A stretch of 64,000 nucleotides of DNA. It comes from Solwaraspora sp. WMMA2056. Its GTDB lineage: Bacteria > Actinomycetota > Actinomycetes > Mycobacteriales > Micromonosporaceae. Made by a program: the position numbers and the translations under genes. The stretch is from NCBI RefSeq assembly GCF_030345095.1, contig NZ_CP128360.1, positions 6,510,001 to 6,574,000 on the forward strand. Direction: 5' to 3'. Every line of letters starts with the position of its first letter. Positions within the stretch are counted from its first letter, which is position 1. The notes beneath the pieces are model-generated. The model was given only the letters and a program-made list of their open reading frames with translations, made no database searches and had not been told where the DNA came from. Below, piece by piece: positions 1 to 56,257 of the stretch.

Positions 1-1
1 G

Positions 2-298
2 GACCGCGACCCGGGCTGGCGGCAGCTCGCCGCCCAGCTGTGCGCGATCGGCCCGGCGACCACCTGTGACGCCGCCACGCTGCTCGCCGCCGTGAGCATC
101 GGCACCGCCGAGATCCTGAGTTTCGTCGACGGTGGGAGCCCGGAGACCATCGGAGCGGCGGTCGAGGTGCACGCCCCCGCCCAGCTGCGCCGACGGGCCT
201 GGTCGGTGCACCCGCGCTGCCCCTGCCAGCGCCGGCCGGCCCCCCGCCGTGGCATGAGCCACGTTCAGGGAGGGGTCACCGTACGCGATCGTCGGTAA
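2..298 (+). CDS. C-terminal fragment of a ThiF/cyclodehydratase-like protein (5' end outside window)
   Basis: An open frame enters from the left edge and ends with TAA at 296-298, 10 bp before the ABC1 kinase start. The visible 98 residues end in a Trp-x-x-His-Pro-x-Cys-x-Cys arrangement (residues around AWSVHPRCPCQ) followed by a basic tail. A terminal W..HP.C.C motif is typical of actinobacterial ThiF/E1-like adenylating and TOMM-cyclodehydratase-like proteins, where the cysteines help bind structural zinc. The nucleotide-binding N-terminus is missing, so the family call rests on this tail and on its position before an ABC1 kinase. It is probably cotranscribed with that kinase. An unrelated zinc-binding hypothetical protein is the main alternative. 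Confidence 0.5.
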   Translation, partial: DRDPGWRQLAAQLCAIGPATTCDAATLLAAVSIGTAEILSFVDGGSPETIGAAVEVHAPAQLRRRAWSVHPRCPCQRRPAPRRGMSHVQGGVTVRDRR

Positions 299-308
299 CA
301 ATGGCCAG

Positions 309-1637
309 GTGACCGATATCCCGCGCTGGGCCGTGTCCAGGACCGCCAAGCTCGCCGCGCTGCCGCTGGGCTTCGCCGGCCGTACCGTCCTGGGGCTGGG
401 CAAGCGGGTCACCGGGCTCGCCTCCGACGTGATCTCCACCGAGATCCAGGAACGCACCGCCGAGCAGTTGTTCAGCGTCCTCGGACAGCTCAAGGGCGGT
501 GCGATGAAGGCCGGCCAGGCGCTGTCGGTGTTCGAGGCGGCGCTGCCCGAGGAGCTGGCGGCACCGTACCGGCAGGCGCTGACCAAGCTCCAGGAGGCGG
601 CCCCGCCGCTGCCGGCCGGCAGCGTGCACAAGGTCCTCGCCGAGCAGCTCGGCGCCGACTGGCGGGAGAAGTTCGTCGAGTTCGACGACCACCCGGCCGC
701 CGCCGCCAGCATCGGGCAGGTGCACCGGGCCCGCTGGCACGACGGCTCACCCGAGGGCCGACCGGTCGCGGTCAAGGTGCAGTATCCGGGGGCCGGCGAC
801 GCGCTGCTCGCCGATTTCAAACAGCTGTCCCGGCTGAGCGCCATGTTCCGGGCGATCCAGCCGGGGCTGGACATCAAACCACTGCTCAACGAGTTGCGGG
901 ACCGGCTCGCCGAGGAGTTGGACTACGAGCTGGAAGCCGAGTCGCAACGGGCGTTCGCGTCGGCGTACGCCGACGACGACCAGATCCGGGTGCCGGCGGT
1001 GCTGGCCGCGGCACCCCGGGTCCTGGTCACCGAGTGGATCGACGGTACGCCGCTGTCGAAGATCATCTCAGCGGGCAGCGCCGAGGAACGGGACCGGGCC
1101 GGGCTGCTGATGGCGGTGCTGCACTTCTCCGCACCGGCGCGGGCCGGGCTGCTGCACGCCGACCCGCATCCGGGCAACTTCCGGCTGATGGCCGACGGCC
1201 GGCTCGGGGTGGTCGACTTCGGGGCGGTCGCCCGGCTGCCGGGCGGGCACCCCGAGCCGATCGGGCGGCTGGTCCGGCTGGCCCTCGACGGCGACGCCGA
1301 CGCGGTGGTGGCCGGGCTGCGCGACGAGGGTTTCATCAAGCCCGACGATCCGATCGACGCGCCCGCGGTGCTCGAGTTCCTGCTGCCGATGCTGGCGCCG
1401 CTGGCCGCCGAGGAGTTCCAGTTCACCCGGCAGTGGCTGCGGGAGGAGGCGGCCCGACTGGCCAACCCGAAGTCACCGGCGTACCAGTTGAGCCGGCACC
1501 TGAACCTGCCGCCGGCGTACCTGCTGATCCACCGGGTCACGCTCGGCTCGATCGGGGTGCTCAGCCAACTGGAGGCGAGGGCGGCGTACCGCGAGGTCGT
1601 ACAGCGGTGGCTGCCGGGCTTCGCACCGGTGGACTGA
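309..1637 (+). CDS. ABC1/AarF/UbiB-family atypical protein kinase
   Basis: A 442-aa protein with the full ABC1 (UbiB/ADCK) signature: the KxGQ motif (KAGQ, residues 67-70), an A-rich loop AAASIGQVHRA, the VAVKVQYPG strand with the ATP-binding lysine, the catalytic loop HADPHPGN and a DFG-like VDFGAV. Family members are atypical kinases/ATPases linked to quinone biosynthesis or lipid homeostasis. The actinobacterial copy beside whiB7 has no established substrate. The GTG start at 309 follows the upstream fragment by 10 bp, which suggests an operon. A strong hairpin at 1671-1700 lies just after the stop. No membrane segment is obvious. The fold call is confident; the substrate is unknown. Confidence 0.9.
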   Translation: MTDIPRWAVSRTAKLAALPLGFAGRTVLGLGKRVTGLASDVISTEIQERTAEQLFSVLGQLKGGAMKAGQALSVFEAALPEELAAPYRQALTKLQEAAPPLPAGSVHKVLAEQLGADWREKFVEFDDHPAAAASIGQVHRARWHDGSPEGRPVAVKVQYPGAGDALLADFKQLSRLSAMFRAIQPGLDIKPLLNELRDRLAEELDYELEAESQRAFASAYADDDQIRVPAVLAAAPRVLVTEWIDGTPLSKIISAGSAEERDRAGLLMAVLHFSAPARAGLLHADPHPGNFRLMADGRLGVVDFGAVARLPGGHPEPIGRLVRLALDGDADAVVAGLRDEGFIKPDDPIDAPAVLEFLLPMLAPLAAEEFQFTRQWLREEAARLANPKSPAYQLSRHLNLPPAYLLIHRVTLGSIGVLSQLEARAAYREVVQRWLPGFAPVD

Positions 1638-1670
1638 ACCAGCGCAGGACGGTGAACTCCGACAGCGTGC

Positions 1671-1700
1671 GGGCCGCGCAGTGCGTGCACTGCGCGGCCC
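1671..1700 (+). terminator. Perfect 14-bp inverted repeat after the ABC1 kinase gene
   Basis: Arms 1671-1684 and 1687-1700 are perfectly complementary around a 2-nt centre. The hairpin begins 34 bp after the kinase stop codon. There is no T-run, as is common for actinobacterial terminators. It sits 25 bp from a second palindrome (1726-1759) that follows the opposite-strand gene, so the two probably insulate convergent transcripts. A protein-binding palindrome cannot be excluded. Confidence 0.55.
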
Positions 1701-1725
1701 GGTAGTCGATGGTGTCGTAGGTGCT

Positions 1726-1759
1726 GCCGGTGGCGCACCGCATGCGGTGCGCCACCGGC
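1726..1759 (-). terminator. 34-bp perfect palindrome downstream of the whiB7-side small gene
   Basis: Bases 1726-1742 and 1743-1759 are exact reverse complements with no central mismatch. The centre is GCATGC. In RNA this would fold as a stem of about 14 bp with a 6-nt loop. It starts 4 bp beyond the stop of the leftward 47-aa gene, which fits a transcription terminator. Perfect 34-bp DNA palindromes are also typical protein-binding or replication-sensitive sites. Confidence 0.5.
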
Positions 1760-1763
1760 GCGG

Positions 1764-1907
1764 TCAGCGCCCGCCCAGGGTGCGGGCCCAGTGCTGCCGG
1801 GCCTGCATCGCGACGGAACGGGCGGGTCGGGTTGCCTCAGTACGCGCGGTGCCGGCCTGAGGCGATCGCATTCGCGCCCGGGAGAGCGCTTCGTAGAGTA
1901 GATGCAT
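1764..1907 (-). CDS. Small hypothetical protein, 47 aa, downstream of whiB7
   Basis: A leftward 48-codon frame starts at ATG 1905-1907 with GGAG about 9 nt upstream and ends at TGA 1764-1766, immediately before a strong palindrome. The product begins MHLLYEALSRARM and is rich in Arg and Ala, with no membrane segment or signal peptide. Short basic proteins opening with a similar MHLLYEAL-like helix are familiar as unnamed actinobacterial hypotheticals (recollection, not a search). It lies 100 bp after the whiB7 stop on the same strand and may be cotranscribed with it. Function is unknown. The good ribosome site and the fit with the terminator are the main reasons to call it. Confidence 0.5.
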   Translation of the reverse strand: MHLLYEALSRARMRSPQAGTARTEATRPARSVAMQARQHWARTLGGR

Positions 1908-2007
1908 GACGGTTTCTCCAGTTACGGTCGGTGCGCTGTAGCCCGGTAGCGCCGGGCTGTCGGTTCGGGCCGGCGGCGCGCCGGCGATCCTCGTGGTCGG
2001 GTGCATG

Positions 2008-2412
2008 TCAGGCCGCCACCTGCACGGCCCGACGGGAGTCGCGGACTCCGTCGGCTGCCATCCGGGTCTCGACCTCGACCCGCAGGGCGGCGTCGCGGGC
2101 CAGATCCTCCTTGCGGGGGCGGCCACGCGGCCGCTTGCGCGGCACGACCGCGCCCCGCTCGAAGATCTCGCCGCCCCAGACGCCCCACGGCTCGGCCCGC
2201 TCGACCGCGCCGGCCAGGCACTCCACCCGCAGTGGACAGTCCACGCAGAGCGACTTGGCCAGTTCCAGCTCGGTCGGGGAGTCGGAGAACCACAGGTCAG
2301 GGTCGAACTTCCGGCACGGCAGGCCTGCCAGCACCTCCGACTGGCCGGTTCCGGCCGGCCGGCAACCCGGCTGGGGGACGCTGCGGTCGAGAGTGGCCAA
2401 CGCCAGACTCAT
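2008..2412 (-). CDS. whiB7: WhiB7/WblC-type transcriptional regulator
   Basis: A 134-aa Wbl protein that binds a [4Fe-4S] cluster and partners the principal sigma factor. Cysteines at 33, 56, 59 and 65 form the Wbl C-x(n)-C-x2-C-x5-C pattern. The glycine-rich turn GVWGG is at 77-81. A C-terminal AT-hook (RPRGRPRK, about 94-101) binds the minor groove and is diagnostic of the WhiB7 class. WhiB7 activates intrinsic antibiotic-resistance genes and its own promoter in mycobacteria and Streptomyces. The gene lies between the ABC1 kinase and uvrD2, as in mycobacteria. Its leader contains an intrinsic terminator (2484-2525), so expression is probably controlled by attenuation as well as autoactivation. 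Confidence 0.95.
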   Translation of the reverse strand: MSLALATLDRSVPQPGCRPAGTGQSEVLAGLPCRKFDPDLWFSDSPTELELAKSLCVDCPLRVECLAGAVERAEPWGVWGGEIFERGAVVPRKRPRGRPRKEDLARDAALRVEVETRMAADGVRDSRRAVQVAA

Positions 2413-2483
2413 CGCCCGGTCACCTCTTTCTTTCGCTTCGATCTCGTAGATCGCTTCCGACGTGCTCGTACCTGTGCGGTCGC

Positions 2484-2525
2484 AAAAAATTAAGGCCGCG
2501 GATCCCGGTTACGGGTTCCGCGGCC
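2484..2525 (-). terminator. Intrinsic terminator/attenuator in the whiB7 leader
   Basis: On the leftward transcript, 9-bp outer arms (2517-2525 with 2494-2502, GGCCGCGGA type), one mismatch, a further 4-bp stem and a 4-nt loop form a strong GC hairpin. It is followed by TTAA and a run of six U (complement of 2484-2489). This is a complete Rho-independent terminator lying 72-113 nt before the whiB7 start codon, inside its leader. Attenuation of whiB7 by such a terminator downstream of an upstream ORF, relieved when ribosomes stall, is established in mycobacteria and Streptomyces. T-rich terminators are rare in this window, so a regulatory role is likely. Confidence 0.85.
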
Positions 2526-2552
2526 TCGAGGTGAGCCGGTTGGTCTGATGGT

Positions 2553-2915
2553 TCAGACCGGCCTTCCTCGAGGGGGAACACCGCTGGCAGCATCCATGAA
2601 CGGCTTCTTGACCGTCGGGATGGTGGTGCGGACGCTGCCTTCGGAGCTGTTGATGCCATTGGTCGCCGTCACTACCGACGCACCACGGTGCCGCAGCCAT
2701 GCCTGGGCCACCTGGGCCCGCTCGGCACCGACCAGACGTCGCGCGGCCAGGCCGGCGGACGCCTCGGTCACCCCGAGTGGGAGCTGGTGGAACTGCTGGG
2801 ACTGGGCCTGGTGCGCCCCGGATCCTCCGGTGGGCGCGACGGCGGCCAGATAGCCGCCGACCGTCGGAGCGCAGGCAGCGGCCAGCGTCGACGTCGGGAT
2901 CATGGTGATCTCCAT
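2553..2915 (-). CDS. Hypothetical protein, 120 aa, ORF in the whiB7 leader
   Basis: A leftward frame begins at ATG 2913-2915 behind an excellent ribosome site (AGGAGG, 7-nt spacer) and ends at TGA 2553-2555, only 28 bp before the attenuator hairpin. The 120-aa product (starts MEITMIPTSTLAAACAPTVGG) has an Ala/Gly-rich N-terminal part, a charged middle and an end with TVKKPFMDAASG. I recognise no domain. Its stop codon lies at a smaller hairpin (2542-2559). An 8-bp self-complementary motif, CCTCGAGG, occurs both in its last codons (2566-2573) and at the terminator edge (2524-2531), so alternative pairing is possible. It could be a genuine protein, the translated upstream ORF that senses ribosome stalling, or both. 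Confidence 0.65.
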   Translation of the reverse strand: MEITMIPTSTLAAACAPTVGGYLAAVAPTGGSGAHQAQSQQFHQLPLGVTEASAGLAARRLVGAERAQVAQAWLRHRGASVVTATNGINSSEGSVRTTIPTVKKPFMDAASGVPPRGRPV

Positions 2916-3006
2916 CGTCGCCACCTCCTGCCTGAAACTCGTCACGGATAACCCTCCCACCCCGGTCGAGCAGCCAGAACGACCACTGCTCGCGAGGTGT
3001 GACCTG

Positions 3007-3044
3007 AGGCTAAGCCTCTTGCGTGGCCGGGGGCAAACCATTTT
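3007..3044 (-). promoter_or_regulatory. Candidate WhiB7-type promoter for the whiB7 leader
   Basis: On the leftward strand an A/T-rich patch (AAAAT, complement of about 3040-3044) is followed by TTTGCC/TTGCCC (about 3033-3038), an 18-19 nt spacer and TAGCCT (3007-3012), which matches the actinobacterial TAnnnT -10. An A/T patch just before the -35 is the known hallmark of WhiB7-activated promoters. The -10 overlaps the uvrD2 stop codon. Predicted transcription would begin near 3000, giving a leader of about 590 nt to whiB7. Confidence 0.4.
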
Positions 3045-5274
3045 CCGGGTCGGATTCCGAACTTTTTTGCAGCTCAAGATCATCTACGCTGGCGCCAGCC
3101 ACCAGCGCGGCCACCGACGGGCCGTAAAGGCCCAGCTTGCGTGGCCCGATCCCGGCGATCGCCAGCAGCTCGGCGTCGGTGCCGGGACGCCGCTCGGCGA
3201 TCGCCACGAGCGTCGCGTCGGTGAACACCACGTACGCCGGCACCCGCTGCTCCCCGGCCGCCCGCGACCGCCAGGTCCGCAACCGCTCCAACAGCTCCTC
3301 GTCGAGATCCGACGGGCAGCCCGGACACCGGCCGAGCTTGCGGTCCACGCCGGCCAGCAGGGTCGCCCCGCAGACCCGGCAGGACACCGGCTGGCCACGC
3401 CGCCGCTGCGACCCGGCGCCCGCCGTACCGTCGCGCTTCGCTCCGCCGCCGGAGCCGCCGGAGCGGTCCAGCTGCGGCAGGAACCGGCACGGCCGCCGGG
3501 CCCGCCCACCCGGGGACCGCGACTGGCCGTACGACAACCACAGCCACTGCCGCGCCCGGGTCACCCCGACGTAGAGCAGCCGCCGCTCCTCCTCCAGCTG
3601 CTCCGCCGTGCGGGCGTAGGTGGTGGGCAGCGTCCCGTCGGCCAACCCGACCAGGAACACCGCGTCCCATTCCAGACCCTTGGCCGAGTGCAGCGAGGCC
3701 AGGGTCACCCCGGCGACCGTCGGCACGTGCTGCGCCGCCGCCCGGCGGGCCAACTCGGCGCAGAAGTCGGCCAGCGACACCGGCCGTTCGCTGACCGCCG
3801 CCTCCCCCACCGGCACCACGACCGGCGTGGCGGCGACCTCCTCGGCCAACTGGACCAGCGCCGCCAGCGCCTCCCAGCGCTCCCGGGCCGCGCCGCCGGG
3901 CGGCGGCTGCCCGGGCGCCCAACCGGCCCCCTCCAGCGCGGCGACGACCGCCTCCACCAGCGGTGTCTCCCCCGGCGTCGACCGGACCGCCGCCCGCAAC
4001 GCCACCATCGCCTGGCGTACCTCGGCACGTTCGAAGAACCGCTCCGCGCCCTGCACCACGTACGGCACCGCCGCCTCGGCCAACGCCTTCTCGTACGCCT
4101 CGGACTGGGCGTTGGTCCGGAACAGCACGGCGATCTCGGCGGCCGGCGTACCGCCGGCGATGAGCTCGGCACAGCGGGCCGCGACCGCCGTCGCCTCGGC
4201 CGGCTCGTCGGTGAAGATCCGTACGTCCGGCTCCGGACCGGGCGGCCGTTGCCCGACCAGCTCCAGCCGCAACCGGGCCTCGGTGCCCCGGGCCTGCGCG
4301 ATCACCGCGTTCGCCAGCCCGACCACCTGCGGCGTCGACCGGTAGTCACGGACCAGCCGGACCACCACCGCGTCGCGGTGGTGGCGGGCGAAATCGATCA
4401 GGTACGTCGAGGTGGCACCGGTGAACGAGTAGATCGTCTGGCTGGCGTCGCCGACCACGGTCAGGTCGTCGCGCCCGGCCACCCAGGCCTGCAGCAGCCG
4501 CTGCTGCAGCGGGTTGACGTCCTGATACTCGTCGACCACGAAGTGGCGGTACTGCGCGCGGACCTGCTCACCCACGTCCGGGTGCTCCTCGATGCCCCAG
4601 ATCGCCGCTCGCAGCACGTCCTCGAAGTCGATCACCCCGGAGGAGCGCTTGATCTTCTCGTAGCCGGCGTACACCTCGGCGACCTGGGCCGGGTCGTGCG
4701 GTGTCTCGCGCAGCGCCTTGGCCGCCGCGACGGCGTACTCCCCCGGCTCGACCATCGACGACTTGGCCCACTCGATCTCGCCGGCCAGGTCGCGGGCCGC
4801 GGCCCGGTCGGTGCGCATCCCGACCCGCCCGGCGGCGAGCGTGACCAGTCGCACCTTGCTGTCCAGCAGCTCCGGCATCTGCCGACCGCCGAGCAGCCGG
4901 GGAGCAAAGTAGCGGACCTGGCGCAACGCGGCGGCGTGGAACGTGCGGGCCTGCACACCGCCCACGTCGAGCGCGCCGAGCCGGGCCCGCATCTCGGCGG
5001 CGGCCCGGGCGGTGAAGGTGACCGCCAGCACGTGCCGGGCGTCGATCTCACCGGAGAGCACCCGGTAGGCGATCCGGCTGGTGATGGCCCGGGTCTTACC
5101 GGTGCCGGCACCGGCCAGGATGCAGACCGGGGCGGCCGACGCGGTCACCGCCGTACGCTGCTCCGGGTCCAGCCCGGCCAGCAACCGCGCGACGCGCGCG
5201 GAGGCCGGCCCGCTCGCCGGCCCGGCGTCCGGGTCCCGGTCGGGGGTCGGGGCTGAGTTGAGGTTCGCGGCCAC
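3010..5274 (-). CDS. uvrD2: ATP-dependent DNA helicase UvrD2 (superfamily 1A with HRDC)
   Basis: A 754-aa SF1A helicase. Walker A is AGAGTGKT (54-61). Later motifs include DEYQDVNPLQQ (motif II), a GDASQTIY motif, VTLASLHSAKGLEWD (motif V region) and YVGVTRAR (motif VI). The C-terminal quarter has a tetracysteine element (CRVCG...CPGCP) and an HRDC-like domain (YVVFTDATLVAIAERRP...IAGIGPRKL). That combination defines actinobacterial UvrD2, an essential 3'-5' helicase in mycobacteria with a role in DNA repair. The likely start is GTG at 5274; no strong ribosome site is visible. It is followed by the whiB7 leader gene on the same strand, and mycoredoxin is divergent. Confidence 0.93.
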   Translation of the reverse strand: MAANLNSAPTPDRDPDAGPASGPASARVARLLAGLDPEQRTAVTASAAPVCILAGAGTGKTRAITSRIAYRVLSGEIDARHVLAVTFTARAAAEMRARLGALDVGGVQARTFHAAALRQVRYFAPRLLGGRQMPELLDSKVRLVTLAAGRVGMRTDRAAARDLAGEIEWAKSSMVEPGEYAVAAAKALRETPHDPAQVAEVYAGYEKIKRSSGVIDFEDVLRAAIWGIEEHPDVGEQVRAQYRHFVVDEYQDVNPLQQRLLQAWVAGRDDLTVVGDASQTIYSFTGATSTYLIDFARHHRDAVVVRLVRDYRSTPQVVGLANAVIAQARGTEARLRLELVGQRPPGPEPDVRIFTDEPAEATAVAARCAELIAGGTPAAEIAVLFRTNAQSEAYEKALAEAAVPYVVQGAERFFERAEVRQAMVALRAAVRSTPGETPLVEAVVAALEGAGWAPGQPPPGGAARERWEALAALVQLAEEVAATPVVVPVGEAAVSERPVSLADFCAELARRAAAQHVPTVAGVTLASLHSAKGLEWDAVFLVGLADGTLPTTYARTAEQLEEERRLLYVGVTRARQWLWLSYGQSRSPGGRARRPCRFLPQLDRSGGSGGGAKRDGTAGAGSQRRRGQPVSCRVCGATLLAGVDRKLGRCPGCPSDLDEELLERLRTWRSRAAGEQRVPAYVVFTDATLVAIAERRPGTDAELLAIAGIGPRKLGLYGPSVAALVAGASVDDLELQKSSESDPENGLPPATQEA

Positions 5275-5371
5275 GGGTAGGAATCATCGCAGCCCCGCCG
5301 GACGTTGCACCGGACAGCCCGGGCACCGCCCGGGCCGATGCCCTGTCGCCGTATCCCGGAGGACCTCTCTG

Positions 5372-5617
5372 ATGTTGACCATGTATTCGACCAGTTGGTG
5401 CGGCTACTGCCATCGACTGAAGTCGCAGTTCGACCGGGAGAAGATCCCGTACGAGGTGATCGACATCGAGCAGGACACCGCCGCCGCGACGTACGTGATG
5501 GGCGTCAACGGCGGTAACCAGACCGTCCCGACGATCCGTTTCCCCGACGGTTCGGCATTGACGAACCCGAGCATCGTTCAGGTCAAGCAACGACTCGCCG
5601 ACCTCGGGGCGAGCTGA
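5372..5617 (+). CDS. mrx1: Mycoredoxin (glutaredoxin-like, CGYC active site)
   Basis: An 81-aa thioredoxin-fold protein with the dithiol active site WCGYC (Cys10 and Cys13) and the cis-Pro segment TVPTIRFPDG. Mycoredoxin-1 reduces protein-mycothiol mixed disulfides in actinobacteria, which use mycothiol in place of glutathione. The presence of mshB at 41.0-41.9 kb supports mycothiol use here. ATG 5372 is chosen because GGAGGA lies about 8 nt upstream and the protein then matches family length. A long in-frame extension upstream exists but would add a non-homologous N-terminus. The divergent partner is uvrD2, the same arrangement as in mycobacteria. Confidence 0.93.
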   Translation: MLTMYSTSWCGYCHRLKSQFDREKIPYEVIDIEQDTAAATYVMGVNGGNQTVPTIRFPDGSALTNPSIVQVKQRLADLGAS

Positions 5618-5776
5618 GTCGCACTCACGGTCCGTCCGCCGCCATGACGCACGTCGCTTTTGCTAACACGCCCCCCAGCGGACCCCACGAAGGCAGCAAC
5701 CGGTCCATACTGTTTCGGGCCGCGACGCACAACGCCGCGACATAGGCGGATACCAACGGATCGGGGGGAGTTTCCG

Positions 5777-6916
5777 GTGCAGCCCGAGCAGCCCATACCC
5801 AGTCCGACGCTGCGTCGCCGCCGTCTCGGCAGCGAACTGCGGCGACTGCGGGAAAGCGCCGGGCTCACCGGCGAACAGGTGATCGAGCGGGTCAACTGGG
5901 CGTCCGCCTCCAAACTCTCCCGGCTGGAGAACGGGCGCAGCCGACCCGGCGTCGGCGACGTGATGGACCTGCTCGACCTGTACGGCGTCACCGGAGCCGA
6001 TCGCGACGAGCTCGTCGCGATCGCCCGGGACGCCGGCAACACCCGGGCCTTTCTCAGCTCGTACAAGGTGATGACCAGCCGGCAGCGGGCGTACGCCGAG
6101 CTGGAGGCCGGGTGCACCGAGATCCAGGAGTACGGCGCGGTCATCATCCCCGGGCTGCTGCAGACCTCCGCGTACGCGAAGGTGCGGATCATGTCGGCCC
6201 GGCCCCTGGTCGGGCCGGGTGACCAGATGACGATCCTGCGCCAGGCGGCCAGCAGCAAGTCCGCCAACCAGAAACAACCGGCCGGTGCCCGCCGCCAGGC
6301 CGACGACCCCGACACCGAGGTAGCGGCCCGCCAGTCGCGGCAGTCCATGCTGCTGCGTGACAACGGGGTCCCGCGCTACACCGCGGTGCTGGAGGAGTCC
6401 GCGCTGGGGCTGCGCTGCGGCCCGCCGGACGTCATGGTCGCCCAGCTGCAACACCTGCGGGCCATGGCCCAGCTCGACAACGTCACGCTGCGGGTGCTGC
6501 CGCCGGGCGCGACGGTCGCCTCCTGGTACCTGTCGGAGACCGCCTTCTCGATCTACCACTTCGCCGACCCCGAGGATCCCAGCGCCGTCGCGATCGAGAC
6601 CCTGGCCGCCGACATCATCGTCAACGACGCCCCCGTACTGGAACGCTACGGCCAGGTCTTCGACTGGCTCTGCGAGGCCGCCCGCAGCCCGGCGGAGTCG
6701 ATCGACTGGCTCGCCGAGGAGATCGCCCGGCACGTCGCGGCCGGTGCCACCGAGCTCAGTGCCGTCGGTGACGACGAACCTTCCCCCGCCACCCCTGCCC
6801 CGCTGTCCCCGCCGGCCACCGGCGGGACAGGCCCCGGCCGACCGGCCGGGCCGCCGATCCAGCGTGGACCGCGCGAGCGTCCCACGCGCCGGACCGAGCA
6901 GGCGACACCGGAGTGA
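5777..6916 (+). CDS. Scr1-family HTH regulator with DUF5753 (antitoxin-like)
   Basis: A 379-aa protein from GTG 5777, preceded by GGGGGAG. Residues 12-70 are an XRE helix-turn-helix (LRRLRESAGLTGEQV...SKLSRLENGRS). The rest matches DUF5753 (EYGAVIIPGLLQTSAYA, then YTAVLEESALGLRCG and LRVLPPGA). Between the two DUF5753 halves (about 150-185) there is a polar, Gln/Ala/Ser-rich stretch that looks like an insertion. A disordered Pro/Arg tail follows residue 330. It pairs with the DUF397 gene 41 bp downstream. Such pairs are very numerous in Streptomyces and Micromonosporaceae and include Scr1/Scr2, described as toxin-antitoxin-like. An upstream start at 5660 has no ribosome site. Confidence 0.85.
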   Translation: MQPEQPIPSPTLRRRRLGSELRRLRESAGLTGEQVIERVNWASASKLSRLENGRSRPGVGDVMDLLDLYGVTGADRDELVAIARDAGNTRAFLSSYKVMTSRQRAYAELEAGCTEIQEYGAVIIPGLLQTSAYAKVRIMSARPLVGPGDQMTILRQAASSKSANQKQPAGARRQADDPDTEVAARQSRQSMLLRDNGVPRYTAVLEESALGLRCGPPDVMVAQLQHLRAMAQLDNVTLRVLPPGATVASWYLSETAFSIYHFADPEDPSAVAIETLAADIIVNDAPVLERYGQVFDWLCEAARSPAESIDWLAEEIARHVAAGATELSAVGDDEPSPATPAPLSPPATGGTGPGRPAGPPIQRGPRERPTRRTEQATPE

Positions 6917-6957
6917 CGGTGTGCCCTCGCCGGTCCGCTTCACAGCAAGGAGCAGGA

Positions 6958-7194
6958 ATGAACCCAGCAGATCAGTCCGTCGTGCGGATCGTCGGCGGCG
7001 CCTCGCCCACCTGGCGCACCAGTAGCCGCAGCCAGAGCACCAACTGCGTGGAGGTCGGGGAACTGGCTGGTCGCAGTACGCCGGTGCTGATGCGCGACAG
7101 CAAGGACCGGTCCGGGCCGGTGCTGTCGTTCGACCGCACCACCTGGCGTGAGTTCATCGACAGCGCCAAGGACGGCGAGTTCGACCTGAGCTGA
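6958..7194 (+). CDS. DUF397 domain protein, partner of the Scr1-type regulator
   Basis: A 78-aa protein with the DUF397 pattern: WRTSSRSQSTNCVEVGEL near the N-terminus, VLMRDSKDRSGPVLSF in the middle and TTWREFIDSAKDGEFDL at the end. ATG 6958 has AAGGAG upstream. DUF397 proteins are small acidic partners of DUF5753 regulators. In the studied pairs the two proteins bind each other and influence antibiotic production or development. The gene is 41 bp after its regulator on the same strand and is followed by a hairpin (7204-7239), so the two form a compact bicistron. Confidence 0.85.
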   Translation: MNPADQSVVRIVGGASPTWRTSSRSQSTNCVEVGELAGRSTPVLMRDSKDRSGPVLSFDRTTWREFIDSAKDGEFDLS

Positions 7195-7203
7195 CGGGCC
7201 GGT

Positions 7204-7239
7204 CGAGCCGGGTGGCCGCCGCCACCCCGACCCGGCTCG
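7204..7239 (+). terminator. Hairpin terminator after the HTH-DUF397 pair
   Basis: Arms 7204-7213 and 7230-7239 are complementary over 10 bp around a 16-nt GC-rich loop, starting 9 bp after the DUF397 stop. There is no U-run. Confidence 0.55.
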
Positions 7240-7465
7240 GTTCCCGCACCCAGCAGCGCGTGCACCGGTGTCGATATCCCCCGAACGGGCACCGGAGACA
7301 GGCCGATCGTCAGGTTTAACCGGTCTGCGATCCGGGTTCTCCCCTTATCGAGACACTCGATGGAAATTCCAGACAAGGATCTTTCGCGCGAGAAAATTTC
7401 GCATGCGGAATCGTCGCGGAACCTGTCGACTGTCCGATCATCGGTCACGGTTCCCGGAGTCGCCC

Positions 7466-7723
7466 ATGCGATATCTGATCGTCCGCACGGAGATCCGCGC
7501 GGTCGCCCACCACGAACTCGTCACCGCCGTCATCGACGGTCGACGTGTCCGCGACGAACAGACCACTCCCGAGCAACGCCGACAGACGTTGCGCGCCACC
7601 GACCGCGAATCCGCGATGCGGCTGGCCCGCGCCCTGTCCACGGTCGGCTCGGTCCGCTCCGGCCGGCACCGGGTCAAGGTCGTTCCGGTGCCGGGCGATC
7701 CGACACCGACCGCGCCGCACTAG
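7466..7723 (+). CDS. Hypothetical protein, 85 aa
   Basis: A small frame from ATG 7466 with GGAG 7 nt upstream. The product starts MRYLIVRTEIRAVAHHELVTAVIDG and contains many Arg and Thr residues. It has no signal peptide, membrane helix or recognisable motif. The segment before it (7240-7465) is unusually A/T-rich for this genome, with GGAAATTCC and GAAAATTTC stretches, and probably holds its promoter. The frame converges on nudC with a hairpin between (7811-7848). The alternating hydrophobic start suggests a small alpha/beta protein. Function is unknown. Confidence 0.55.
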   Translation: MRYLIVRTEIRAVAHHELVTAVIDGRRVRDEQTTPEQRRQTLRATDRESAMRLARALSTVGSVRSGRHRVKVVPVPGDPTPTAPH

Positions 7724-7810
7724 CTGCGGCCCCCGACGACCGTCGTCGCACCGGCCGGCCCCCGCCGCAGGGCGCGCCCGCCGCCACCGGGTCACGACGG
7801 TCCATGGCTT

Positions 7811-7848
7811 CGGCCCGTGGGCATCGCGGCAACGGTGTCCACGGGCCG
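7811..7848. terminator. Bidirectional hairpin between convergent genes
   Basis: Arms 7811-7820 and 7839-7848 pair perfectly over 10 bp around an 18-nt loop, midway between the 85-aa gene (rightward) and nudC (leftward). The symmetry suits either transcript. Confidence 0.5.
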
Positions 7849-7889
7849 GGGTCAGGCTGACAACAGGATCACCGGCCCGACATCCAGGG

Positions 7890-8885
7890 TCAGGCCGACA
7901 CCCAGCGGCGGATCAGGAAGGCGGCGATCGACGCGGGTCCCGCCAACTGCACCTCGAATCCGTCGCCGGCATCGACCCGCTCCCCGGCCAGCACCGCCGC
8001 GAGCTGCGCCCGGGTGAACCAGTGGGCCCGCCGGATCTCCGCCGGATCCACCCGGACCGGCTGTTCGGCGTCGACCAGGCCCAGATAGCCGAGCATCAGC
8101 GTGCCCGGGAACGGCCACGACTGGCTCGCCACGTACGTCAACCCGGTCAACGTCACGCCCACCTCCTCGGCCACCTCGCGGGCCGCAGCCGCCTCCGCCG
8201 ACTCGCCCGGCTCGACGAACCCGGCCAGGCAGGAGTAGAGCCGCCCCGCCCCGGCACCGGGCCGGTCGTGGTGGTTGGCCAGCAGACACCGGCCCGCCGG
8301 CCCGGCGACCCCGTCGGTCACCAGCACGATCACCGCCGGATCGGTCCGTGGCCAGTGCCGGGTGCCGGCGTCGTCGACCCGTGTCCAGCCGCCGTCGGCA
8401 CAGCGGGTGCCCAGACCGGTCGACGACGCGTACGGATGCCGGGCATGCCAGCCGGCCAGCGCCGCCGCCGTCGTGAACAGCCCGGCGTCGCGGTCGCCGA
8501 GCAGGTGACCGACCTGCCGTACCGTGGCCAGCCGGGCACCGGCCGGCCACGGGGGCGACCCCGGTGACGGCTCCAGGGGCGCGTCGACGGCGAAGTACGG
8601 GGTGCCGTCGTCGTCCGTACCGAGAAAGATCCGCTGCTGCGCCGGCACCGCCGGCGCACGGTCCGCGTCGAGCAGAACCAACGCCACCCCGGCCCCGTCG
8701 TCGCAGACCACCGCCGGGCCGCCGGCAGCCGAGTCCACCACCAGCACCCGGGCCCGCGGCCACGCCTGCGCCAACCACTGCGGGTCGGTCCGGTGCCGCG
8801 CCGCCCGGTCGACCGCGCGCCGGGCCAGCGCCGGCTGGTCAGCCGGATCGCCGGTCGCGCCCTCCGGCGGCGGTACGTCGCTCAC
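7890..8885 (-). CDS. nudC: NAD(+) diphosphatase / Nudix hydrolase NudC
   Basis: A 331-aa Nudix protein that hydrolyses NADH/NAD+ to NMN and AMP. In other bacteria NudC also removes NAD caps from RNA. The Nudix box reads GFVEPGESAEAAAAREVAEEVG, followed by the NudC-specific SQSWPFPGTLMLGY element. The segment PRTDPAVIVLV before the catalytic domain is also typical. The zinc ribbon normally found just before that segment is largely lost: only one cysteine (RCADGG) remains where four are usual in the E. coli enzyme. GTG 8885 overlaps the stop of the upstream M16 gene (GTGA), so translation is coupled. Confidence 0.9.
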   Translation of the reverse strand: MSDVPPPEGATGDPADQPALARRAVDRAARHRTDPQWLAQAWPRARVLVVDSAAGGPAVVCDDGAGVALVLLDADRAPAVPAQQRIFLGTDDDGTPYFAVDAPLEPSPGSPPWPAGARLATVRQVGHLLGDRDAGLFTTAAALAGWHARHPYASSTGLGTRCADGGWTRVDDAGTRHWPRTDPAVIVLVTDGVAGPAGRCLLANHHDRPGAGAGRLYSCLAGFVEPGESAEAAAAREVAEEVGVTLTGLTYVASQSWPFPGTLMLGYLGLVDAEQPVRVDPAEIRRAHWFTRAQLAAVLAGERVDAGDGFEVQLAGPASIAAFLIRRWVSA

Positions 8886-10237
8886 AGTGCGGTGCCGGGC
8901 AGCTCGACCTGCGTCAACGCGGCCACCGGCCCGGCGATGCGTGCCACGTCACCGAGCACCACACCCGACGCCCGCGCCGGCGCCAGGTAGCGGGTCGCCG
9001 CCTCGGCGACCTCGTCGCGGGTGACCGACGCCAGCCGGGCGATGTGCTCGGCGAGGAACTCCAGCGGCAGACCGAACCCGGCGTACGTGCTGGCCAGGCC
9101 GGCCAGCCCGGCCTGGGTGGACATGCCCAGCTGCAGGGTGCCGACCGCGTACTGCCGGGCCTGCTCCAACTCCTCGGCCCCGGGCGGCAGCGCCGCCAGC
9201 CGGCCCAGCTCGTACATCGTCTCCAGCAGCGCGGGAGCGGTCACCTCGGTCGCCACGTCGGCGGAGAGCATCAGCACCGAGCCGGCGATCGAATGCTCCA
9301 CCATCGAGTACGGGCCGTAGGTGTAGCCCTTGTCCTCCCGGATGTTCTCCACCCAGCGGGACGAGAAGTAGCCGCCGAAGACCATGTTGGCCAGCTGCAA
9401 CGCCGCGTGGTCCGGGTGCCGGCGGTCCACCGCCGGCAGCGCGATGCGCACCGACGACTGCACCGACCCCGGCCGGTCGACCAGCAGCAGCGGTGCCGGC
9501 CGGGGATCCGGTGCCGGCGGCAACGTCACCTGCCGTCCGACGGTGGACCAGCCGGCGAGCGCCTGCTCGGCGACGTCCAACGCCCGCTTCGGGGCCACGT
9601 CACCGACCAGCACCAGGTGCGCCCCGGCCGGCTGCACCCGCTCGGTGTGCAGCGCCCGCAGCGCCGCCGCCCGGACCGCCCGGACCTGCGCCACGGAGGG
9701 CGTCGGCTCGGCGTACGGGTGCCGTCCGTACAACCGGCGGGTCAACGCCGTCCGGGCCAGATGCGCCGGCTGGCTCAGCGCGACCTGAATCCGGTCGGCG
9801 AGCCGGTCCCGTTCGATCGCCACCTCGTCGGCCGGGTACGTCGCACCGGTCAGCACCTCGCCCAGCAGTTCGAGCATCCGCCGCAACCCGGTGACCAGCC
9901 CGGCACCGGAGATGAGCAGCCGGTCGGCGTCGAGCCCGGCGGCCAGTCCGCCACCGACCGCCTGCAGGTCGGCGGCGAGTCGCACACCGGAGCGCTCGGC
10001 GGTGCCGGAAAAGATCGTCTGCGACAGTACGGTGGCCCGGGCCAGCGGGGCCCGGGCGAACGGCACCCAGAGCCGGACCTCGACCAACGGCACCGTCGCC
10101 CGGCGGATCGCGATCACCCGCAGCCCGGTGTCCAGGGTCCGCTCGGCCACCGTGGGCACCGGCGGGGTGCGGGTCGGCCCCAGCGCAGGCAACGGCCGCC
10201 GGGGCTGCGGCTGCCCGGCCGTACCGGCGGCGGTCAC
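8882..10237 (-). CDS. M16-family peptidase homologue, non-catalytic subunit
   Basis: A 451-aa protein in the M16 (insulinase/MPP) fold. It carries late M16 features such as LANMVFGGYFSSRWVENIREDKGYTYG but no HxxEH zinc motif; the equivalent region reads ATVLSQTIFSGTAERSG. It is therefore the structural partner of the catalytic subunit encoded just upstream, as in mitochondrial processing peptidase and other bacterial M16B heterodimers. GTG 10237 overlaps the upstream stop as GTGA, with GGGAGG just before it. The first 45 residues are Pro/Arg-rich and probably disordered. No signal peptide is seen, so it should act in the cytoplasm. Substrate unknown. Confidence 0.88.
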   Translation of the reverse strand: MTAAGTAGQPQPRRPLPALGPTRTPPVPTVAERTLDTGLRVIAIRRATVPLVEVRLWVPFARAPLARATVLSQTIFSGTAERSGVRLAADLQAVGGGLAAGLDADRLLISGAGLVTGLRRMLELLGEVLTGATYPADEVAIERDRLADRIQVALSQPAHLARTALTRRLYGRHPYAEPTPSVAQVRAVRAAALRALHTERVQPAGAHLVLVGDVAPKRALDVAEQALAGWSTVGRQVTLPPAPDPRPAPLLLVDRPGSVQSSVRIALPAVDRRHPDHAALQLANMVFGGYFSSRWVENIREDKGYTYGPYSMVEHSIAGSVLMLSADVATEVTAPALLETMYELGRLAALPPGAEELEQARQYAVGTLQLGMSTQAGLAGLASTYAGFGLPLEFLAEHIARLASVTRDEVAEAATRYLAPARASGVVLGDVARIAGPVAALTQVELPGTAL

Positions 10238-11544
10238 CAGGCACCTCCCGCAACGATCTCGAGCACGGCCCGCCGATGCGGACGTAACGTGGCGGCGGCC
10301 TGCCTGATCTGCTCCTCGGTGACCGCGCCGATCAGCCGGGGCAGCTCGTTGATCAGCTCCGGGGCACCGCGCTGCTGCTCCAGCACCGCGATCCGCAGTG
10401 CGCGGCCGAGCACCGCGTCGGTGTCGCGCAGCAGGTGGGTCGCCATCCGGGCCTTGACCCGGGCCAGCTCGCCCCGGTCGAAGCCGTCGGTGACGAGCCG
10501 GTCCAGCTCCTCGTCGACCGCGGCGAGCACCCGGTCGGCGTCGCCGCCGGGCGGCAGGTGCGCCTGCAGCACCAGCACCGTCGGATCCCGTACGTCGAAC
10601 GGCTCCCCCTCGAACGACAGGTAGCCGCCGACGCTGGTCACCGACCGGTCGACCCGGACCAGCCGGTCCACCAGCCGCGCGGCGTCGCCGTCGGTGAGCA
10701 CCTCGGCGAGAACCACGTACGGCAGGTAGCCGGGCAGGTCGTCGATCGGGTCCGGCACTCGCCAGGCGACAGCGACCGCCGGCAACGGCGCCAACGCGTC
10801 GGTGTACGTCGTCCGGCGTTCGCCGGTCAGGTCGGGCTCGGTGAAGCTGGGCCGGGGCGGCGCGGGCCGGGCCGGCACGTCCCCGAAGTGCCGTTCGACC
10901 AGCGTCGTCGCCTCGGCGACGGAGACGTCGCCGGCGACCGCGAGCACCGCGTTGCCGCTGGCGTAGTAGCGGGTGAAGAAGTCGGCGGCCTCGCCGACCG
11001 TGGCGCTCTCCAGATCGACGAAGGACCCGTAACCGTCGTGCGCGTTCGGGAAGCTGTCGAACATCACCGGCGGCAGCAGCAGCCACGGGAACCCACCGTA
11101 CGGTCGGTTGAGGACGTTGACCCGGATCTCCTCCTTGACCACGTCGACCTGGTTGCGCAGGTTCTCCTCGGTCAGCTGTGGGCCGCGCATCCGGTCGGCC
11201 TCCAGGAACAGCGCCCGTTCCAGCGCGTTGCTCGGCAGCACCTCGTAGTAGTCGGTGTAGTCGAGGTGGGTGCTGCCGTTGAAGGTGCCGCCGGAGCCCT
11301 GCACGTGGCGGAAGTGCGCCAGCTTCTCCAGGTTGGCCGAACCCTGGAACATCAGGTGCTCGAACAGGTGCGCGAAGCCGGTCCGGCCCGGCGGCTCGGA
11401 GCGGATCCCGACGTCGTAGACGACCGCGACGCCGACCACCGGGGCGCTGCGGTCCGGCGCGACGACCACCCGCAGACCGTTGGCGAGGGTGAACCGTTCC
11501 ACCGGGTACGCGGTCGCCGGGATCCGCACTGCACGTGGTGCCAC
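10234..11544 (-). CDS. M16-family zinc metallopeptidase, catalytic subunit
   Basis: A 436-aa M16B peptidase with the inverted zinc motif HLFEH (His59, Glu62, His63) and the downstream VVKEEIR segment that supplies the third metal ligand. The PPGRTGFAHLFEHLMFQGS block is highly characteristic. It forms a translationally coupled operon with the inactive M16 homologue and nudC (4-bp GTGA overlaps at both junctions), strongly suggesting an obligate heterodimer. Start GTG 11544. No export signal is visible. The family degrades or processes peptides; the natural substrate is not evident from context. Confidence 0.93.
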   Translation of the reverse strand: MAPRAVRIPATAYPVERFTLANGLRVVVAPDRSAPVVGVAVVYDVGIRSEPPGRTGFAHLFEHLMFQGSANLEKLAHFRHVQGSGGTFNGSTHLDYTDYYEVLPSNALERALFLEADRMRGPQLTEENLRNQVDVVKEEIRVNVLNRPYGGFPWLLLPPVMFDSFPNAHDGYGSFVDLESATVGEAADFFTRYYASGNAVLAVAGDVSVAEATTLVERHFGDVPARPAPPRPSFTEPDLTGERRTTYTDALAPLPAVAVAWRVPDPIDDLPGYLPYVVLAEVLTDGDAARLVDRLVRVDRSVTSVGGYLSFEGEPFDVRDPTVLVLQAHLPPGGDADRVLAAVDEELDRLVTDGFDRGELARVKARMATHLLRDTDAVLGRALRIAVLEQQRGAPELINELPRLIGAVTEEQIRQAAATLRPHRRAVLEIVAGGAW

Positions 11545-11600
11545 GCCACCGACCCTAACCTGTCGCCGCCGACCCGTGCCGCACCTGAGCCCAACGAGCG

Positions 11601-12581
11601 CTACTCGACACGCACCGATGCGTACAGGTCCTCGACCATCCAGTCGAGGTGACGGTGGGTGCCCGGGATCGACAGGAACAGCACGGCCGCCGTGGGCCGC
11701 CCCACGTCGATGCAGGCCACCGCCACGAGTTCGTCGGTGGCCTGCAGCCCCGGCTGGGTGAAGTGCAACCGGAACACGGTCAACCAGGCGGGCCGACCGC
11801 CGATCGCGGTCCGCTCGTCACGGATCAGGTCCGCGCGGTTGGGCTGCGGGTAGTACTCGGCGCGGACGTCGGCGGCCACCTGCCGGCCGATGCATTCCAG
11901 ATCGACGGTGAGCGCGTCGTTGTCGGCCACCGGCACGGCGGCGGACAGGATCGAGGCGTGGTAGTCGCTGAACCCGTTGTACTGCGCCTCGGTGACGAAG
12001 TGCTGCCCCACCTTGTACGGCACCTGCAGCGAACCGGCGTTCCACACCGCCCGCCACGGCTGCCACGGCTCGCCGTAGCTGGTGTAGGAGATGCCGGCGT
12101 CCGGGTCGACGGTGCGTGGCCCGGTCGGGTCCGGCAGCGCCGGCCCGGGGTCGGCCGGTGGCGGCGGTTCGCTCGCGGTGGGGGTGGCACCGGCACAGAG
12201 CTGCGCCAGCGGCGGCCGGACGTCGTCCGGCGGCGGCGGGGTCCGGAACGGATCCGGGTTGCCGCTGAGCACCAGCGCCAGGACGGCCACCAGGCCGACG
12301 GCCAGCACGGCCGCGGCGGCACCGCCGAACCACCACAGTCGCCGGTTGTCCGACCGTGGCGGGCCACCGGGCGGACCGGCCGCCGGTGGCGGCTGGGGCA
12401 CCCCAGCACCGCCGGCCGGCGGGGGGTACGGCAGGCCGGGACGGGTGACCGCACCGGCGGCCCAGTCACCTGGCCGGCTGACCGCACCGGTGGCCCGGTC
12501 ACCTGGCCGGGTGACGGCTCCGGTGGCCCGGTTCACGGCGGTCCCGGGCGGCGGCCGGTCCGGTAGCGGCGTGGCAGACAT
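11601..12581 (-). CDS. Membrane-anchored protein with extracellular domain, unknown function
   Basis: A 326-aa protein from ATG 12581 with AAGG just upstream. Residues 18-49 are three copies of an 11-residue unit (RATGAVTRPGD-like). A proline-rich stretch follows, then one membrane helix (LWWFGGAAAAVLAVGLVAVLALV, about 86-108). The remainder is a predicted external domain containing two cysteines (AQLCAGA and DLECIG) and ending in a hydrophobic-aromatic segment. The topology is a cytoplasmic disordered tail with an external domain. It is 47 bp after the 66-aa membrane protein on the same strand. Actinobacteria have many such single-pass proteins of unknown role; I assign no function. Confidence 0.7.
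   Translation of the reverse strand: MSATPLPDRPPPGTAVNRATGAVTRPGDRATGAVSRPGDWAAGAVTRPGLPYPPPAGGAGVPQPPPAAGPPGGPPRSDNRRLWWFGGAAAAVLAVGLVAVLALVLSGNPDPFRTPPPPDDVRPPLAQLCAGATPTASEPPPPADPGPALPDPTGPRTVDPDAGISYTSYGEPWQPWRAVWNAGSLQVPYKVGQHFVTEAQYNGFSDYHASILSAAVPVADNDALTVDLECIGRQVAADVRAEYYPQPNRADLIRDERTAIGGRPAWLTVFRLHFTQPGLQATDELVAVACIDVGRPTAAVLFLSIPGTHRHLDWMVEDLYASVRVE
12435..12530 (-). repeat. 33-bp tandem repeat, about 3 copies, in the membrane-protein gene
   Basis: Three in-frame 33-bp units encode RATGAVTRPGD, RATGAVSRPGD and WAAGAVTRPG. The near-identical DNA suggests recent slippage or duplication. Confidence 0.75.
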
Positions 12582-55922: not shown

Positions 55923-55966
55923 CCCGGCCCCAACTGACCGCAGCAGCCTGACCCCAGCACAACGAC

Positions 55967-56004
55967 CGAAGGGCCGGACCCCGTACCCGGGGTCCGGCCC
56001 TTCG
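55967..56004. terminator. 16-bp perfect hairpin terminator
   Basis: Arms 55967-55982 and 55989-56004 pair perfectly around a 6-nt loop (core AAGGGCCGGACCCC). It lies 45 bp after the lysozyme-like gene and 14 bp from the convergent GntR gene, suiting both. Confidence 0.75.
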
Positions 56005-56017
56005 ACGCATTCCTGAC

Positions 56018-56257
56018 TCAGGACTGCCTATCCGGGGTGACGAATGTGCCGCGCCCGGTGAAGGTGACCACTCGGCCTTCCTCGCGCAACGCGTCGAGTG
56101 CAGCCCGCACGGTGCCGCGCGCCACGCCGTACGTCTGCGCCAGCGTCACCTCGCCAGGCAGCTTGTGCCCAGGCGGCCACTCGCCGCTGTCGATCCTCGC
56201 CTTCAGGGCGTCGGTCACCTGCTCGGCAAACGAACGCGGCGACCAAGGGTCGATCAT
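56018..56257 (-). CDS. Short GntR-family regulator, DNA-binding domain only
   Basis: A 79-aa protein consisting almost wholly of a GntR winged helix: SFAEQVTDALKARIDSGEWPPGHKLPGEVTLAQTYGVARGTVRAALDALREEGRVVTFTGRGTFV. No effector-binding domain follows, so it resembles the small GntR repressors of actinomycete mobile elements. ATG 56257 is used; GTG 56308 is in frame but lies at the predicted -10. Three TGGACAGG-type sites flank and fill its promoter (56273-56334), indicating autoregulation. It lies in a short lower-GC accessory patch. Confidence 0.82.
   Translation of the reverse strand: MIDPWSPRSFAEQVTDALKARIDSGEWPPGHKLPGEVTLAQTYGVARGTVRAALDALREEGRVVTFTGRGTFVTPDRQS

Follow-up and report, generated by a model that had tools for sequence, protein, structure and literature searches.

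What does an open reading frame of 120 codons do in front of whiB7: does it sense the ribosomes that translate it, yield a protein of its own, or both? The question is raised by the leader of whiB7 in Solwaraspora sp. WMMA2056 (a genome of 7.01 Mb on a single contig), analysed here within a stretch of 64,000 nt that we call the window. The strain belongs to the Micromonosporaceae, which are major antibiotic producers. Lee, Lee and Roe reportedly described a uORF-mediated transcription attenuator of whiB7/wblC (Molecular Microbiology, 2022), and our leader, judged from its sequence and from that of its relatives, is very probably a whiB7/wblC transcription attenuator, thus adding a Micromonosporaceae member to a kind already known. 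Our literature search found no paper with both Micromonosporaceae and whiB7; wblC and Micromonospora co-occur in two.

On the minus strand, the gene for a UvrD-type helicase with an HRDC domain (uvrD2) is followed by the leader, whiB7 and a small ORF, and beyond the small ORF a gene for an ABC1-type kinase lies on the plus strand. Of six WhiB-type places in the strain's own genome the query scores best, followed by one of 38% identity, and a WhiB7 match at E ≤ 1e-25 is present in 146 of the 150 genomes of the family; the NCBIfam search with WhiB7 gave no match. All of the leader elements that a sequence-only reading of this DNA had named, namely an upstream ORF (uORF), a stop-codon hairpin and an intrinsic attenuator, were located on the minus strand where that reading had placed them (Table 1).

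Table 1. Features of the whiB7 locus in the window; the promoter, ribosome-binding sites and RNA pairings are predicted.
Feature	Position	Strand	Remark
WhiB7/WblC box GAAAAT (GAAAWY)	3040..3045	(-)	3 nt before -35; box as defined in the excerpt of PMC7157823
Promoter: -35 TTGCCC (3036-3031), 18 nt spacer, -10 TAGCCT (3012-3007)	3007..3036	(-)	
uORF ribosome-binding site AGGAGG	2924..2929	(-)	8 nt before ATG at 2915; GGAGG block conserved in 41 Micromonospora/Salinispora leaders
uORF, ATG to TGA, 120 codons	2553..2915	(-)	frame conserved, body nearly free, end GVPPRGRPV conserved
Degenerate copy of mid-uORF motif, GGGACCAATGGGTTC	2652..2666	(-)	12/15 by eye
Antiterminator 5' strand CGG-U-GUUCC	2575..2583	(-)	pairs with 2519-2512
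Outer stem 5' strand CCTCGAGG	2566..2573	(-)	inside uORF
Inner hairpin GGTCTGA-ACCA-TCAGACC	2542..2559	(-)	stop codon UGA (2555-2553) in 5' arm
Outer stem 3' strand CCTCGAGG	2524..2531	(-)	last GG is first GG of terminator
Terminator stem-loop	2494..2525	(-)	conserved A.A mismatch; arm 2519-2512 also antiterminator 3' strand
Terminator A/U tail AATTTTTT	2484..2491	(-)	T6 at 2489-2484
whiB7 ribosome-binding site AAGAGGTG	2421..2428	(-)	
whiB7, 134 aa	2008..2412	(-)	Pfam Whib PF02467, E 3.7e-13

The candidate promoter, read as GAAAAT-GGT-TTGCCC at 3045-3031, would be an autoregulated one, the WblC box being given in the excerpt of PMC7157823 as GAAAWY three bases before the -35 element. Its -10 box overlaps the stop codon of uvrD2 and is far from the sigma-70 consensus; a generic sigma-70 scan of the leader region reported 0 promoters. 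The promoter region is kept in 41 Micromonospora/Salinispora leaders, with TAAATT replacing GAAAAT. Transcription would start near 3000, giving a leader of about 590 nt. Between the terminator and the whiB7 ribosome-binding site lies a small inverted repeat, CGATC...GATCG (2453-2439, minus strand), in a block conserved in Micromonospora. On the other side of whiB7, the 47-aa ORF at its 3' side (1767-1907, minus strand, starting MHLLYEALSRARM) has no Pfam match at E ≤ 0.01 and has relatives in 72 of the 83 loci with enough 3' flank; it resembles a conserved, whiB7-linked small protein.

RNA structures in the leader

For the region 2600-2480 the folding energy is -59.7 kcal/mol (z -5.41), a value that none of 200 shuffles matches. 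The arms of the terminator are GGCCGCGG (2525-2518) and CCGCGGCC (2501-2494). A generic terminator pattern scan reported 0 terminators in the leader region; its rule allows 0-2 nt between stem and T-run, and in this leader TTAA intervenes. Among 143 distinct hairpin regions, pairs one to eight of the terminator are present in all and the ninth in 135, and 130 retain an A.A mismatch at position ten. The 5' A of this mismatch is able to pair with the uORF strand as part of the antiterminator, a pair present in 131.

Upstream of the terminator, the outer stem, formed by CCUCGAGG inside the uORF and CCUCGAGG just before the terminator, is paired in 1142 of the 1144 cells of the same 143 regions, and 2000 one-strand re-deals, which ignore relatedness, reach a maximum of 1133. 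Compensation is seen at the seventh and eighth pairs, with A-U for G-C in 11 and 4 sequences, respectively. The two CCTCGAGG copies had been read from the single sequence as an alternative to the base of the terminator; the pairing, with its compensatory A-U pairs, is borne out, and the competition by this helix alone is not, as the helix and the terminator share two bases and the helix by itself hardly competes. The competing pairing is, in our model, the extension of the CCTCGAGG helix, 2583-2575 with 2519-2512. This predicted antiterminator, CGG-U-GUUCC:GGAACCCG, is paired in 1035 of 1144 cells, the maximum of 2000 re-deals (relatedness again ignored) being 1034.

An alignment of 52 leaders, hand-picked from the 143 for breadth, allows both structures to be compared. 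The terminator structure is paired in 93.3% and the antiterminator structure in 90.0% of cells, both above every slid register and every one of 500 shuffles (means 91.8 and 88.7), which take no account of relatedness. The terminator stem is paired in 99.4% of cells and the inner hairpin in 81.5%. Double changes occur in 28 cells of stem and terminator taken together; the shuffles average 9.1, and none of 500 reached 28. The terminator structure does not stand above shuffles in pair types (304/500), nor does the antiterminator structure in double-change pairs, reached by 46/500, or in pair types, reached by 498/500. In the antiterminator extension the U-A pair of columns 14-88 is broken in 16/52 sequences and the G-C pair of columns 12-90 in 11/52. 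The extension rests mostly on little-varying pairs, and an antiterminator overlapping both uORF and terminator is predicted in silico with a small margin of covariation.

The uORF as sensor or product

Taken alone, the uORF is within chance expectation for G+C-rich DNA: an antisense ORF of 101 codons spans most of the same stretch, and 12.7% of composition shuffles of 144 family uORFs stay open. It is the conservation of the frame among the loci of the family that makes it real, the frame being open for at least 80 codons in 152 of 153 distinct Micromonosporaceae-type loci (the exception is L043), and the other two frames in 17 and 57. Gaps in the uORF come in multiples of three in 140 of 177 cases, against 14 of 147 in a terminator-to-whiB7 control (84 nearest-neighbour pairs), a count redone at higher gap cost, with slightly different pairs and with penalties chosen after the first result; looser penalties had given 393/1109 in the uORF, not above one third, and 61/349 in the control. 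We judge that the aligner opened spurious gaps under the loose penalties. A Shine–Dalgarno (SD) sequence, an open frame and gaps in threes together mark the uORF, on sequence grounds, as probably translated.

The length of the uORF had been thought unusual, and it is not: 120 codons are ordinary because the ranges within and outside the family include such a length. A rule of SD sequence and length gave a uORF in 166 of 175 Micromonosporaceae-type loci (147 distinct; nine loci gave none), with 77-184 codons and a median of 93, a range that is rough because some of the picked starts are doubtful (e.g., TTG in locus L088, with 163 codons). Three of the 147, with stops outside 18-35 nt before the terminator, were dropped from the shuffle, frame, gap, leader-conservation, composition and end-residue counts. 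A rule of the same kind gave 36-160 codons in 47 of 52 leaders of other families, two having been left out for want of a terminator anchor and three for want of an SD-led uORF; four Streptomyces-like genomes have 90-109 codons, and four Mycobacterium-like genomes have 45-68, shorter than in the window.

The uORF body, that is, everything before the last 12 codons, has a dN/dS of 0.73-0.98 in five genus-level groups, against 0.10-0.24 for WhiB7 at the same loci. The groups hold 7, 41, 29, 6 and 6 sequences, or 89 of the 147 distinct uORFs; many uORFs fall in none of the five, and three (L018, L088, L161) were excluded for doubtful start choice. In the genus of the window, represented by seven genomes in the set searched, the uORF has 0.91 in frame, between the 1.34 and 0.66 of the other two frames. 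Near neutrality of the body and this intermediate value lead us to reject a protein product as the main reading. Because the frame stays open while most of the protein sequence drifts, the comparison favours a uORF that is a sensor rather than a constrained protein or second gene product, within a scope of 153 distinct family loci for the frame and 89 sequences in five groups for the substitution rates. A readable frame with a nearly free body is what a general elongation-rate sensor would predict, and not what a dual-function gene would. The alignment across Micromonosporaceae that the sequence-only reading had proposed as a check came out on the side it had assigned to a pure sensor, with the last codons and the hairpins conserved and the body not, and both the ORF and the outer stem are kept in relatives.

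A sensor may be of a more particular kind, an amino-acid-specific attenuator with a uORF that mainly senses one charged tRNA, e.g., that of alanine. We regard this as improbable, although it is the best placed of the alternatives. Alanine accounts for 15.8% of residues in the bodies of 144 family uORFs (17.5% in the window), and the two shifted frames, which serve as the baseline here, have 8.5% and 12.8%. High-G+C genomes are alanine-rich anyway. No run of one amino acid is found near the hairpin. A role of WhiB7 in mycobacterial alanine starvation is mentioned in the excerpt of PMC10727445 and in the references of PMC11550727.

Slightly less probable is the proposal of the sequence-only reading that the uORF is both a sensor and a functional small protein, which the body rates given above count against. 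Frame conservation with in-frame indels agrees with it, as do the values from close pairs in the five groups: the in-frame dN/dS of the uORF is 0.45-1.22 overall, and it is the lowest of the three frames in three groups, namely Micromonospora (0.70 vs. 1.30 and 0.95; 178 pairs), the Actinoplanes-like group (0.45 vs. 0.90 and 1.06; 6 pairs) and, narrowly, the Plantactinospora-like group (0.61 vs. 1.24 and 0.64; 6 pairs), so weak constraint is possible in some groups. By the same method the adjoining 47-aa ORF stands, by contrast, at 0.31-0.55 in its own frame, against 0.75-2.74 in the others. The uORF peptide has no match in Pfam or NCBIfam at E ≤ 1, and tblastn of the genome contigs with the window peptide found no relative at E ≤ 1e-3, in a pattern-seeded search that may miss near relatives. 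The last 12 codons seem at first to favour a protein, with a dN/dS of 0.00-0.29 in four of the five groups; the value is 1.04 in the Actinoplanes-like group, the intervals are wide, and synonymous change is itself low here (pS 0.04-0.13). These codons pair with the terminator-proximal strand, and their variable third bases (GGN, CCN, GGN) are, by our reading, the positions bulged or unpaired in the RNA model, which is why RNA pairing explains most of the conservation of the uORF end; constraint on peptide and on RNA are not separated here.

The same end, GVPPRGRPV, might instead be a programmed ribosome stall that sets the decision itself, with the long body as an approach only, a reading we hold to be about as unlikely as the dual-function one. 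All 144 uORFs keep the G, P, P and R of GVPPRGRP, and 139 have R or K at the later arginine; both PP and R-x-R are sequences prone to stalling. In the AGR codon (AGG in the window, within 2569-2561, minus strand) the first base is conserved although it is unpaired in the RNA model. Most of the same conservation is, however, demanded by the outer stem and the antiterminator, the uORFs of other families end differently (e.g., WSPPV or WSDPA), and a ribosome stalled at GVPPRGRPV would be expected to occlude the strand that a terminating ribosome occludes at the stop codon, favouring termination.

A proposed switch and its relation to known attenuators

For a sensor of elongation rate, we infer the transcription start, translation, termination, antitermination and drug response of this leader to be as follows. 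A WhiB7-responsive promoter would start the leader of ~590 nt, and a ribosome translating the 120-codon uORF would follow RNA polymerase. On timely arrival at the stop codon, the ribosome would cover the 5' strand of the stop-codon hairpin, no antiterminator would form, the terminator (2525-2494) would fold, and transcription would end at ~2484. If elongation within the uORF is slowed or blocked, by a ribosome-targeting drug or by a shortage of charged tRNA, the stop-codon hairpin would close and zip on into CGG-U-GUUCC:GGAACCCG, so that the antiterminator takes the 5' arm of the terminator before its 3' arm is made; polymerase would then read through into whiB7, and WhiB7 would raise its own promoter. 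The uORF would thus serve as a length of track to be translated in time, with most of its peptide unselected as a product.

Minimum-energy folds are consistent with this order of events. Of 143 sequences, 136 show four or more antiterminator pairs as prefixes that stop short of the terminator 3' arm, and 140 show seven or more terminator pairs at full length. In the window, the full segment folds at -54.2 kcal/mol with terminator and hairpin vs. -47.6 with the antiterminator, and the prefix with the antiterminator at -44.0 kcal/mol; with a ribosome masked at the stop codon the terminator remains in the fold. As the antiterminator is the weaker structure at equilibrium, the switch must be kinetic, and in this model the antiterminator would have to form first and persist past the U-tract for the switch to work.

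Control might alternatively act mainly on translation of whiB7, through a sequestered ribosome-binding site and not through termination, and the CGATC...GATCG repeat just before that site lends itself to such a reading; we give it very little credence, given that the repeat excludes AAGAGGTG (2428-2421) and that a terminator with so well paired a stem (99.4% of cells) intervenes. Least credible of all is that the hairpin merely terminates uvrD2, whose transcript, coming from just upstream on the same strand, would meet it too, as between them lie a WhiB7-type promoter and an SD-led, frame-conserved uORF with an end that pairs, with compensations, with the terminator-proximal strand.

The attenuator reading is in keeping with what is described for other whiB7 genes. 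According to the excerpt of PMC10727445, a long leader containing a uORF and an intrinsic terminator is typical of whiB7 in actinobacteria, and stalled ribosomes allow an antiterminator to form from overlapping uORF and terminator sequences; the excerpts of PMC13393426 and PMC11550727 give the same outline, and that of PMC4128351 reports attenuation at the terminator in mycobacterial whiB7. Compared by description and not base by base, the window shares with these the gene, a WhiB7-type promoter, a long leader, a uORF, an intrinsic terminator and a predicted antiterminator from overlapping uORF and terminator sequences. With the mycobacterial leader, as excerpted in PMC4128351, it has in common a uORF starting ~10 nt after its SD sequence and 3' attenuation predicted at a stem-loop with a U-rich tail; that leader is ~350 nt long, against the ~590 nt proposed here. 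The uORF end GVPPRGRPV and the hairpin sequence differ from those of the Streptomyces-like and Mycobacterium-like leaders, among those listed.

Other attenuators share the logic and differ in the uORF. In the Mycobacterium ilvB1 leader, as far as the excerpt of PMC13236596 describes it, a ribosome at the uORF stop likewise blocks the antiterminator and the terminator forms; its uORF is short, with four regulatory branched-chain codons for one pathway, whereas that of the window is long and lacks such a run. The window leader is accordingly not of the trp/ilv peptide-leader type, having no run of regulatory codons in 120 and whiB7 as its downstream gene. The Streptomyces are5sc and tiaA leaders (excerpt of PMC12421871) also have a drug-stalled ribosome and a terminator/antiterminator switch, but with uORFs of 3 and 9 residues and stalling at the start codon, unlike the window.

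Distribution and nucleotide-level motifs

A covariance model, R1, built from the 52 hand-picked family leaders and used at E ≤ 0.01, has one strong match in the strain's own genome and matches 89 of 118 genomes of the class, including two whose leaders contributed to the model (the own genome and G009). The best match lies 11-294 nt 5' of a WhiB7 match on the same strand in 88 of these 89, the exception being G153, which has no WhiB7 match at E ≤ 1e-18. At the same threshold R1 has no match in 29 of the 118 genomes, including three of the four Mycobacterium-like ones, so that the hairpin sequence must have diverged in these relatives; a WhiB7 match at E ≤ 1e-18 is absent from 15 of the 118. 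A second candidate in the window (55934-56058) was rejected, as it matches weakly and has the look of an ordinary G+C-rich terminator lying between convergent ORFs. An Rfam 15 scan of window positions 1-12000 found no family at gathering score; of 6 matches below threshold, one is antisense to the leader. R1 makes the whiB7 leader searchable across the class, where Rfam 15 has no family matching the copy in the window.

Within the uORFs of several families (e.g., loci L014, L067, L196 and L216) we observed a further motif, CAGGGGACC(A/G)NTGNSTYC, with unusual codon choice. At the amino-acid level its pattern, G-[TIV]-x-x-[SF], occurs in 22 of 47 one-per-genus family uORFs and in 13 of 47 from other families; the means after shuffling are 2.0 and 1.4. 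Copies picked by this pattern have GGG as first codon in 21 of 33 distinct family 15-mers and in 5 of 8 others, and T closes the third codon in 27 of the 33 and 5 of the 8; in family uORF bodies as a whole, GGG is 20% of glycine codons and T fills 13.9% of third places. These counts point to constraint at the nucleotide level. Copies picked by nucleotide likeness to the consensus (at least 9 of 15), a choice that inflates codon bias in this set, are found in 115 of 194 uORFs. Of the 99 Micromonosporaceae cases, 78 have the motif 28-31 codons before the stop; the distance differs in other families.

A hairpin at the GGGACC motif was considered and rejected. Its pairing, 0.747, is well above that of synonymous redraws (mean 0.531, maximum 0.604), and re-dealt halves pair equally (mean 0.745), which speaks for sequence constraint without covariation. 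The motif (about CAGGGGACCANTGGSTTC, or ...GTGTCC) may conceivably be a programmed pause site of RNA polymerase or ribosome that synchronises both before the decision point, which we think doubtful and which, if true, would add a part to the whiB7 switch. The elemental pause signal given in the excerpt of PMC12288461 (G-10, Y-1, G+1) fits the GTG/CTG variants (14 of 45 distinct 15-mers, by our reading) and misses the common GGC/GGG ones, so a pause function stays a guess. Finally, in the 41 Micromonospora/Salinispora leaders the segment PSVPQVHQVQVQAEL, about codons 31-45 of the uORF, has less synonymous change (pS 0.04-0.07) than non-synonymous change (pN 0.09-0.12), and is, on this comparison, a further stretch apparently constrained at the nucleotide level.
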